From an uncultured Erythrobacter sp. (GTDB lineage: Bacteria; Pseudomonadota; Alphaproteobacteria; Sphingomonadales; Sphingomonadaceae), in NCBI GenBank assembly GCA_947503155.1, contig CANNCL010000002.1, positions 496,001 to 560,000 of the forward strand: a stretch of DNA of 64,000 nucleotides. The letters are read 5' to 3'. Position numbers and translations under genes: made by a program. Below, one piece after another: positions 45,417 through 51,396 of the stretch (its first letter is position 1; the number at the start of each line of letters is the position of its first letter). The notes under the pieces are model-generated. The model was not told where the DNA came from. It searched no databases and saw nothing but the letters and a program-made list of their open reading frames with translations.

Positions 45417-45746
45417 GCGCATCGCGCGGTATAGGAATTCGATTTTCCTACAAAACGCACGCCGCCTATAGTTCGTCGCATGGCCCGTCCAACACCAAGA
45501 CAAACTCATATTGATCGCCAACACCGATCACAGGGCGGCTTTGTGATCGATTGGTTTTCTCCCCTTGGACTGTGTGTCAGGTGTGTCAGGTGTGTCAGGT
45601 GTGTCAGGGGTCGGGCGTTGATGGGCGCGTGCAAGGGCGTGTTGATGGCCGCAAAACGCCGCTTTGCGCGGATAAGTGCGCTCTCTCCCCAAATCCCCTG
45701 CAAGCTTCACTTGGCGTTCACGCAGGCGCTGGTTATACGCGGGTCC
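45417..45746 (+). other. 330-base gap before bamD
   Basis: No convincing gene. The frame of bamD stays open to 45480, but the peptide (with a CVR repeat) looks non-coding. It contains the nine-base tandem repeat listed separately, and a promoter-like pair TTGGCG (45711-45716) and TTATAC (45733-45738), 16 bases apart and so close to the bamD ATG that the transcript would be nearly leaderless. Confidence 0.5.
45573..45608 (+). repeat. Four perfect copies of a 9-base tandem repeat
   Basis: TGTGTCAGG is repeated four times without change at 45573-45581, 45582-45590, 45591-45599 and 45600-45608. It lies in the gap upstream of bamD, about 140 bases before the start codon. Perfect short repeats of this kind can vary in copy number by slippage. 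Confidence 0.95.
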
Positions 45747-46593: not shown

Positions 46594-48261
46594 ATGCTGA
46601 CCCGGCTTTCGATCCGTAACATTGTCCTTATCGAAGCGCTCGATCTCGACTTCGCGCGCGGGCTAGGCGTGCTGACGGGGGAGACGGGGGCAGGCAAGTC
46701 GATCCTGCTCGATGCGGTAGGCTTGATACTGGGCGACCGGGCGGAGACAGCTCTGGTGCGCGCGGGTGAGGCCAAGGCAAGCGTCACGGCGAGCTTCGAG
46801 TTTGCAGAGCTTCCCGCGGCAATTGCGCAAGCCTTGGATGATGCCGATATCGACATTGAGCCGGGCGAACCGCTGTTGATCCGGCGTCAGGTGAAGGCCG
46901 ATGGCGGGTCCAAAGCCTTCGTCAATGATCAGCCGACCAGCGCGGGCTTACTACGCGAACTGGCGCCCGCTTTGGTGGAGCTGCACGGGCAGCATGATGA
47001 TCGCGGTCTGGTGAACCCGCGCGGGCATCGGATGCTGCTCGACCGCTATGCCGGGATTGATCTGGGCGGGCTGGAGAAACGCTGGCGCAGTTGGGCGAAG
47101 ACCGAAGCGCAATTGTCAGAGGCCCGCGCTGCGCAAGAACAGGCGAAGCTCGACGAGGAACTGCTTACCGCGCATCTGGCGGAGTTGACGACGCTGGCCC
47201 CGATAGTGGGCGAGGAAGTGCAGCTCGCATCGGCGCGCTCTGACATGCAAAAGGGCGAGAAGCTTTCGGGCGAACTCGAAGACTTGCGCCATGTGTGGGA
47301 AGGGTCGGATTCGCCGCTGGCGTCGCTGCGCGTGGCGGCGCGTAAGCTGGACCGGATCGCGCCGGAACATGCGATGCTGGCCGATGCGCTGGCGTCCTTG
47401 GACCGCGCCGTGATCGAAGCGGGTGAGGCGGAGGATAAGCTGGAGGCGGCAGCGCGCGCATTGGTGCATGACCCGGCGGCGCTGGACGCGGCGGAGACGC
47501 GATTGTTCGAATTGCGAGCGATGGCGCGCAAGCATCGCTGCGACGTGGATGAGCTGCCTGAACTGATGATCGACATGCGCGGGAAACTGGACGCTATCGA
47601 GAGCGGCGATGCTGAGCTCAGCGCCTTGGAATCCGCCGCCAAGCAAGCGCGCGAAACCTATCTCAAGACCGCGGAAAAAGCCCATGCCGCGCGGGTCAAA
47701 GCGGCCAAGAGCCTCGACAAAGCGGTTGCTGCAGAGCTTGCGCCGCTTAAGCTGGACGCGGCGCGGTTCCTTACGTCGGTCGCCGTTCTTCCAGAGGACA
47801 AATGGGGCGCGTATGGCATGGACAGCGCCGAATTTCTGATCGCCACAAACCCCGGCGCAGACTTCGCGCCGCTGGCCAAAATCGCGTCCGGCGGGGAATT
47901 GTCGCGTTTCATCCTAGCGCTCAAAGTTGCGCTGGCGGAAAAGGGCGGGGCGGCGACGATCATCTTTGATGAGATCGATCGCGGCGTCGGCGGCGCGGTG
48001 GCGTCCGCTATCGGTGAACGCTTGGCACGCCTTGCCAGCGCGGAAGGGCAATTGCTGGCCGTAACGCATAGCCCGCAAGTCGCCGCGCGCGGGGGAATGC
48101 ATTACCTCATCGCCAAAGCGTCCAGCGGCACAGTGACCAAGACCAGCGTCGCCGCGCTAGACCAAGCCGGGCGGCAGGAAGAGATTGCACGGATGCTTTC
48201 TGGTGCCGAGGTCACGCCAGAGGCGCGGGCGCAGGCAGATCGATTGTTGGAGGGTGTGTGA
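46594..48261 (+). CDS. recN: DNA repair protein RecN
   Basis: RecN is an SMC-like ATPase for double-strand break repair. The 555-residue protein has Walker A GETGAGKSILLDAVG, central coiled-coil arms, signature ASGGELSRFILALK and Walker B IIFDEIDRGVGG, ending AEVTPEARAQADRLLEGV. Length is typical. The stop TGA is inside GTGATG, where the next gene begins. Its final 54 bases have a degenerate copy at the end of that next gene. Confidence 0.97.
   Translation: MLTRLSIRNIVLIEALDLDFARGLGVLTGETGAGKSILLDAVGLILGDRAETALVRAGEAKASVTASFEFAELPAAIAQALDDADIDIEPGEPLLIRRQVKADGGSKAFVNDQPTSAGLLRELAPALVELHGQHDDRGLVNPRGHRMLLDRYAGIDLGGLEKRWRSWAKTEAQLSEARAAQEQAKLDEELLTAHLAELTTLAPIVGEEVQLASARSDMQKGEKLSGELEDLRHVWEGSDSPLASLRVAARKLDRIAPEHAMLADALASLDRAVIEAGEAEDKLEAAARALVHDPAALDAAETRLFELRAMARKHRCDVDELPELMIDMRGKLDAIESGDAELSALESAAKQARETYLKTAEKAHAARVKAAKSLDKAVAAELAPLKLDAARFLTSVAVLPEDKWGAYGMDSAEFLIATNPGADFAPLAKIASGGELSRFILALKVALAEKGGAATIIFDEIDRGVGGAVASAIGERLARLASAEGQLLAVTHSPQVAARGGMHYLIAKASSGTVTKTSVAALDQAGRQEEIARMLSGAEVTPEARAQADRLLEGV
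48208..48261 (+). repeat. recN 3' tail, copy 1
   Basis: The last 18 codons of recN (E-V-T-P-E to stop). They align codon for codon without gaps with 48660-48713; I count 39 of 54 identical bases and 11 of 17 identical residues, and both copies end in a TGA inside a GTGATG/GTGATGA-type start overlap. Confidence 0.6.
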
Positions 48262-48712
48262 TGGAAATTCTAGGCGGCTTTTTTCTAACCACTATTTTGC
48301 TGTCACTGATTGGATCAGTGACCGTGTTGGCGCTCGCCAGCATGGCGGTGCTGGGCATCACCACCGAAATGAGTTTCAGGAGGCTGTTTTTCGTGTCCTT
48401 TGGGATCGGCTTGTTGGCACCAATCCTGCTCGCGGCGGGAGTTTCCTCTCTGTTCGATGACGAGAGCTTTAAGCAGCAATTTCTGACCGAATTGAGCGAG
48501 TTCGTAGCCGGATCGGAGAATGTGGTGCAAGCCCTTCCGCGCATCCGAGAGCTTCGCCAGCAATTGAGCGATGGCACGATCACTCCCGATCAATTTGAGG
48601 ACCAGCTAGAGCAACTCATCGAAGAAACGTCCGGCGCTCAGATTGAGTTAGAAGGTGTGGAGATTACGCCCGAGGTGGACGCGGAAGCGGATCGGTTGAT
48701 CGAGGGGGAGTG

Positions 48713-48713
<1 letters not shown>
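48261..48713 (+). CDS. Small membrane protein with a RecN-like C-terminal tail
   Basis: A 150-residue protein: two hydrophobic segments (TTILLSLIGSVTVLALASMAV and LFFVSFGIGLLAPILLAAG), then an acidic helical domain (FLTELSEFVAGSENVVQAL; QQLSDGTITPDQFEDQLEQL) and the tail GVEITPEVDAEADRLIEGE, strikingly like the RecN C-terminus. Start ATG 48261, or in-frame GTG 48258, overlapping the recN stop. Function unknown; the ITPDQFEDQLEQL segment looks like a short helix-loop-helix. Confidence 0.75.
48660..48713 (+). repeat. recN 3' tail, degenerate copy 2
   Basis: The last 18 codons of the small membrane-protein gene, matching the recN tail 452 bases upstream at about 72% of bases. The residue pattern E-(V/I)-T-P-E-x2-A-x-A-D-R-L-x-E-G is shared, and weaker similarity (L-x-G-x-E) extends a few codons further upstream. 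Confidence 0.6.

Positions 48714-51395
<2,682 letters not shown>

Positions 51396-51396
<1 letters not shown>

Follow-up and report, generated by a model that had tools for sequence, protein, structure and literature searches.

A likely copy of the recN 3' end closes the neighbouring small gene of an Erythrobacter: a probable scar of gene insertion between recN and ligA

Why do recN and the gene that follows it end in nearly the same sequence in an uncultured Erythrobacter sp.? In the window (the whole stretch of 64,000 nucleotides that was analysed) recN (46594..48261, 555 aa, NCBIfam TIGR00634, 437 bits against a cutoff of 408), a small gene of 150 aa (48261..48713), gene 3 (48713..49216, 167 aa, without a match above a family cutoff) and ligA (49255..51396, NCBIfam NF005932, 824 bits), the right-hand core gene of the interval, follow one another on the + strand. 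A YfiO/BamD-like gene lies upstream of recN, with a short tandem repeat of gtgtgtcag units (around 45572-45608) further upstream. The first-pass annotation of this DNA had interpreted the shared gene ends as an old duplication of the recN tail that also copied the coupling junction.

The end of recN (48208-48261) and that of the small gene (48660-48713) align without gaps when anchored at the stop codons, with 39 of 54 bases (stop included) and 11 of 17 residues identical, and TGATG is found at both the recN/small gene and the small gene/gene 3 junctions; our recount agrees with the annotation in all of this. The latter had read the overlap as GTGATG, of which the TGATG part holds, but the GTG is probably not a start: the mechanical pick of the ORF list was GTG 48258, upstream of ATG 48261, and the 17 orthologues in our alignment begin with the Met of the latter. 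A local alignment widens the match to 45 of 62 bases, including the TG of TGATG, between the source sequence at 48202..48263 (+ strand), which holds GGAGG at 48249-48253, and the copy at 48654..48715 (+ strand), which ends the small gene in the frame of recN and whose TGATG starts gene 3. The copy is also matched by a profile of the recN end (G000:C2:544680-544715, E 4e-4).

As the fairer of two null distributions we have used the stop-anchored 17-codon tails of 398 ORFs in 464 kb (the window and a further 400 kb of its contig), called mechanically and therefore possibly including some that are not genes. The recN/small gene pair ranked first among the 79,003 tail pairs (36/51 nt; 11/17 aa, the next amino acid value being 9), only three pairs in all reached 29 nt, and the next best adjacent co-directional pair had 4 of 17 residues in common (n=219 such pairs). 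The shuffled null proposed with the annotation gave the same answer, as the observed score was attained by none of 200,000 codon shuffles and none of 200,000 residue shuffles of the small-gene tail. The match is beyond chance for two unrelated gene ends.

Which of the two tails is the source can be judged from their distribution. In the genus, 107 genomes have recN at E<=1e-50, and 100 of these loci were examined (the seven left out had mostly a cut recN or fragmented assemblies). The last 17 residues of RecN came in 13 variants, of which EVTPEARAQADRLLEGV, that of the window, was present in 70 loci; the other 30 differed from it at few positions and 10 of the 17 positions were invariant. Just ahead of this tail, EEIARMLSG aligns with a RecN in the PDB, which we take to be that of Deinococcus. 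A GGAGG-like motif stands just before the recN stop in 81 of the 100 loci and TGATG at the stop in 53, so that the likely ribosome-binding site and start of the neighbour are often contained within the last codons of recN. The small gene, on the other hand, is patchy. A protein search of 114 genus genomes at E<=0.01 found it in 20, that of the window being one of them, and a profile in 22, two of them only at E 0.03-0.1 over short stretches. In a family sample of 298 genomes, seven from the genus, it appeared in five at E<=0.01 (the three strong matches belong to the genus, and two at E 0.007 are weak and come from outside it); stricter filters apply in profile searches of more than 40 genomes. 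The 10 named loci found are all titled Erythrobacter, E. longus DSM 6997 among them. With one tail near-invariant and the other gene patchy, the recN end is old and the small gene young, and the RecN tail is the source of the match. That the tail of the small gene originated by duplication of the recN end is, in our estimation, very likely.

The interval in which this happened is a gene-content hotspot, with high turnover between two conserved genes. Its length ranges from -2 to 3,266 nt (median ca. 1,008, 96 loci), and in 86 of the 100 loci an ORF of at least 60 aa starts within 60 nt of the recN stop, these ORFs (called mechanically, and some possibly not genes) falling into 25 single-linkage blastp clusters. 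One of these clusters, with eight members, includes the homologue of gene 3 in L086. Some first genes recur. Gene A of genome G090, a member of the ABM monooxygenase family (PF03992), has homologues as the first genes of G267 and G413 (78/126 and 57/128 identical), and in three genera (L085, L185, L184) such a gene is the first one downstream of recN and is itself followed by a recN-end copy; in other loci, e.g., L064, L067 and L068, gene A-like DNA is also seen farther along the interval, in most cases close to ligA. Gene Y (91-103 aa) lies directly on recN in L104 (1668-1955), L132, L121 and L122. Its weak alignment to the small protein (probability 34% and E 4e-4 in hhalign) means that the two may be distant homologues, and their tails may for this reason be one event.

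Same-strand copies of the last 30-106 nt of recN were found within the interval in seven gene contexts, three of them in other genera: the small-gene clade, G090, G089 (with gene Y), G061, G267, G413 and G201. A scan for tail copies over the 100 genus loci, in 97 of which the two genes are 60 nt or more apart (for four loci without a ligA match a limit of 2,800 bases was set), gave six loci with scores of 38-59. Specifically, these are L085/G090 (score 59, 31/32 nt, in noncoding DNA, with its end in the ATG of the ORF that follows), L059 (54, 42/52 nt), L104/G089 (48, 30/34 nt, at the end of the 95-aa gene Y), L061 (46, 35/43 nt), the window (39) and L062 (38). The highest score among control pieces of recN (n=1,067) was 35, and two of them had at least 34; on the reverse strand the highest was 31 (97 loci). 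The window itself thus scores little above the control maximum; L065, with 32, falls below it. Genome G061 was missed because its interval had been taken to end at a ligA fragment (see below); over the whole interval its score is 85. The copies outside this ranking match recN over 75/80 nt (G413), 39/50 (G267), 77/104 (G201) and 56/65 (G061). In L132 and L121 the recN-end copy of gene Y is degenerate.

When all of recN and ligA was scanned in overlapping pieces against 99 intervals, matches of at least 40 came only from the last 106 nt of recN and the first 208 nt of ligA, with one exception. The latter, a control piece scoring 114 in L156, is a dispersed GC-rich repeat. This repeat (ACCACCCCCC...GGGGGTGGTG) occupies +10 to +96 after recN in L156 and apparently also ca. 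+513 to +600 of the ligA region, is also present near recN in L132, L121 and L192, and in L132 the recN-like end of gene Y seems to be broken up by DNA resembling it. Searched with a 44-nt profile built on the end of recN, the 114 genus genomes gave seven extra matches at E<=1e-3, six of which lie within ca. 1 kb behind recN and on its strand (at E<=0.01, 7 of 18 lie close behind recN). Within the family sample, 12 genomes besides that of the window had two matches at E<=1e-3; counting G061, there are 13 such genomes, and the second match lies behind recN in four of them (G413, G267, G201 and G061); in the remaining nine it lies elsewhere and is no better than E 1.8e-4.

The carriers that could be placed are scattered on the recN tree (G413 could not be placed; L069 and L184, whose recN is cut by a contig end, were not used), and the left ends of the copies vary between 30 and 106 nt before the end of recN. 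The gene itself is full-length and open in the copy-bearing genus genomes and in G267 and G201, the contig of G413 holding only its end. No integrase was found with Pfam or NCBIfam among the six interval proteins scanned. Some of the copies beside recN in other genomes are much younger than that of the window, and those of G090, G267 and G413 may stem from fewer than three events, since each of these genomes has a gene A homologue (57-78 identical of 126-130).

A way to understand what such copies represent is to look at the genes behind them. In five of the seven contexts (the window, G267, G201, G413 and G061) the copy is followed by a gene whose homologue elsewhere stands first after recN. 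Gene 3 of the window shares 81 of 164 residues with the gene directly on recN in L086/G130; the gene of G267 matches that of L083 (score 151 over 55 residues), that of G201 matches L094 (187/301), that of G413 matches L187 and L189 (124/266), where it lies 17 nt behind recN, and Y of G061 matches L084 (122/217). In G201 and G413 the displaced gene begins somewhat behind the copy. The next gene of G089, which starts ca. 110 nt past the copy and shares 231/297 with the L094 gene on recN, has been left out of the five. For the gene that follows the copy in G090, no convincing homologue was seen on recN (score 30); the second gene of L085 was compared with that of L083 as a candidate homologue and set aside, with a score of only 30. 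These observations suggest that the downstream copy is more likely the original recN junction of the resident gene, displaced by an insertion, and the duplication proposed by the first-pass annotation survives in this altered form: five of the ten near orthologues of the small gene keep a tail similar to their own recN and recN-end copies recur elsewhere, but a plain copying of the tail onto the next gene is probably not what took place.

The joins are resolved in two of the seven contexts. In G061 the order is recN, gene X (172 aa), a 5' fragment of ligA reaching to about codon 70, a recN end, Y and the complete ligA, and the fragment is joined to the recN end at TCGGGC, six nucleotides common to its own ligA and recN. 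In G413 about 20 codons of ligA are joined to the recN end at ATCGCGC (7 nt), equally common to its own ligA and recN, and the ligA and recN alignments overlap by 10. A homologue of X lies between recN and ligA in G379 (69/170). An incoming recN-X-ligA segment whose right end had been joined into the resident recN end would be expected to leave such marks. No donor of the G061 ligA fragment was found among the sampled relatives, which are distant, and its closest sequence is the ligA of G061 itself. For the copy in the window, neither a ligA fragment nor a clean empty site was seen; this copy is old and has kept no junction evidence, so the route proposed for it is taken from its relatives.

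The reading that we prefer, with a probability of roughly 0.7, is a homology-anchored illegitimate insertion of a recN-gene(-ligA) segment that left the old recN junction of the resident as a scar. DNA of a relative, carrying a recN end, another gene and the start of ligA, would recombine homologously through recN. Usually a second homologous crossover would swap the whole interval; occasionally the other end would be joined illegitimately within the 3' end of the resident recN, where a few bases are shared. Then recN would be completed by the incoming end, with the new gene next to it, and the old 3' end would remain as a scar before the displaced gene, which would retain its likely ribosome-binding site and TGATG start. 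In the lineage of the window, if its case is of this same type, the inserted small gene would read into the scar in the frame of recN and use its TGA, so that the C-terminus of the small protein would be a decaying piece of RecN. Entry of a circularised fragment by a single crossover would give a similar product.

It is tempting to go further and see in the recN 3' end more than a passive scar, namely a reused junction module, so that the locus would grow in the manner of a small cassette array in which recN ends separate the genes. Since the ribosome-binding site and start of the neighbour lie within the last codons of recN, every viable insertion would have to duplicate that stretch and, if this were true, new genes could draw their C-termini from recN ends. 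We consider this generalisation doubtful.

The main rival to the insertion reading needs no foreign DNA. A tandem duplication within one genome could have doubled the recN 3' end, the next gene and the ligA 5' end at a microhomology, one of the two middle genes being replaced later. The joins described above fit this too, and in G061 both pieces are nearest to their own genome: the ligA fragment to the resident ligA (179/191, the best other being 162/192) and the recN copy to the resident recN (56/65, next 55). On the other hand, X and Y of G061 are unrelated (score 29), so that an extra replacement is required each time, and the fragment of G413 is slightly closer to L191 (55/57) than to its own ligA (53/57), a small difference. 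Taken together, we regard an origin within the genome as unlikely.

Less probable still is that a charged helix capped by TPE and ending at a GGAGG/TGATG coupling site arose independently in the small gene. Along these lines one could mention that its tail weakly matches VbhA (E 1.4e-4, under the cutoff), that ITPD is present within the SHOCT-like part of the small protein, and that the frequency of GGAGG-like motifs (81/100) and TGATG (53/100) at the recN end may mean that the last bases are favoured for coupling. The codons, however, speak against this. Identical residues share the same codon at 7 of 11 positions in the window (4.3 expected from codon usage), 9 of 12 in L059 (4.4 expected) and 7 of 10 in both L061 and L062, the expectations ranging from 4.1 to 4.4 over these four cases, which are related and hence not independent. 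The position of the window pair as an outlier among the 79,003, the 42/52 nt of L059 and the near-identical noncoding copy of L085 (31/32 nt) also speak against convergence or chance, which we hold to be improbable.

What does the tail do in the small protein? The protein has two long N-terminal helices predicted by the model (hydrophobic by sequence), a SHOCT-like segment and a variable tail; no family was matched above cutoff by the window member (Pfam, NCBIfam). The SHOCT-like segment (residues 94-119, 48540..48617, + strand) matches Pfam PF09851 at E 0.003, with 17.6 bits against a gathering score of 27 that is not reached, and 11 of 17 members match at E<=0.01. A VbhA-like antitoxin tail was also considered and discarded (E 1.4e-4, below the Pfam cutoff; at E<=0.01 only 2 of the 17 members matched it). 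Of the five segments compared, residues 94-121 form the best conserved one. The mean pairwise identity is 0.84 in the SHOCT-like part and 0.37 in the tail, the lowest of the five, compared with 0.96 in the recN tail. In a model that is weak overall (mean pLDDT 65, pTM 0.27), residues 126-150 have pLDDT below 50 and no secondary structure. Similarity of the tail to the own recN, anchored at the stop, is present in five of ten near orthologues (12, 10, 10, 8 and 8 of 17, against 11 in the window) and little or none is left in the other five (5, 4, 4, 2 and 1), the lowest value, that of L060, being due to a one-codon deletion that shifts the register. The tail has been lost in L063 and replaced in L067/L068; the distant orthologues L069-L076 have 0-4 of 17, and the recN-like tail is absent by eye in L077, the ninth of them. 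A remnant in decay accounts for such a pattern better than a conserved signal does, and a variable, predicted disordered tail is unlikely to be a conserved tag or degron. The suggestion of the first-pass annotation that the copied tail was retained for binding a shared partner or as a degradation signal, for which a similar stretch does end both proteins in the window and in L059, is thus very hard to maintain for the least conserved, lost or replaced segment of the protein.

If the insertion reading is true, the locus offers a readable scar of the stacking of single genes between core genes (anchor end, insert, old anchor end and displaced resident). Such scars would let failed swaps be counted and roughly dated, and they would point to a route by which one gene obtains a C-terminus that already exists, the start signals of its neighbour being preserved. 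Among the matches listed by title in one open literature collection, we found no publication on this recN-ligA locus. In Helicobacter, restriction-modification genes insert with long target duplication, the new gene being flanked by a duplicated piece of the target. Here, in contrast, 30-106 nt of one gene end are duplicated, the same end repeatedly, and the interval proteins that were scanned included no recognised restriction-modification gene. Hotspots that have core genes on both flanks and in which mobile elements are not recognisable are known, as set out in the relevant part of PMC5635113; the recN-ligA interval shares with them the turnover of genes between two core genes and, beyond what is described there, adds junction-level scars.

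Among the closest known processes is homology-facilitated illegitimate recombination (HFIR). According to the portion of PMC3240628 that deals with it, HFIR junctions in transformable bacteria mostly have 3-10 bp of microhomology and are generally accompanied by deletion, while in E. coli partial duplications are formed instead from single crossovers of circularised DNA. Our case resembles HFIR in having one homologous end, a probable illegitimate end with a microhomology of a few bases (in G061 and G413), and new DNA beside a conserved gene. It differs from the deletion-bearing products in that portion (PMC3240628) in that a short part of the anchor gene is present twice and we saw no resident gene that had been lost from this locus. 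A mechanism akin to HFIR has been proposed for the stacking of genes in the T6SS effector-immunity displacement arrays of Vibrio cholerae, in the sections of PMC5361080 concerned with them. As in those arrays, an incoming module would be anchored in a conserved upstream region, the resident shifted downstream and genes stacked (PMC5361080). Unlike what those sections describe, no effector-immunity pairs were recognised at the recN-ligA locus, and its joins carry short recN 3' scars with coupling signals, one of which is used as coding sequence (PMC5361080). The insertion process is already known; what is new is the recN-ligA locus and the captured tail.
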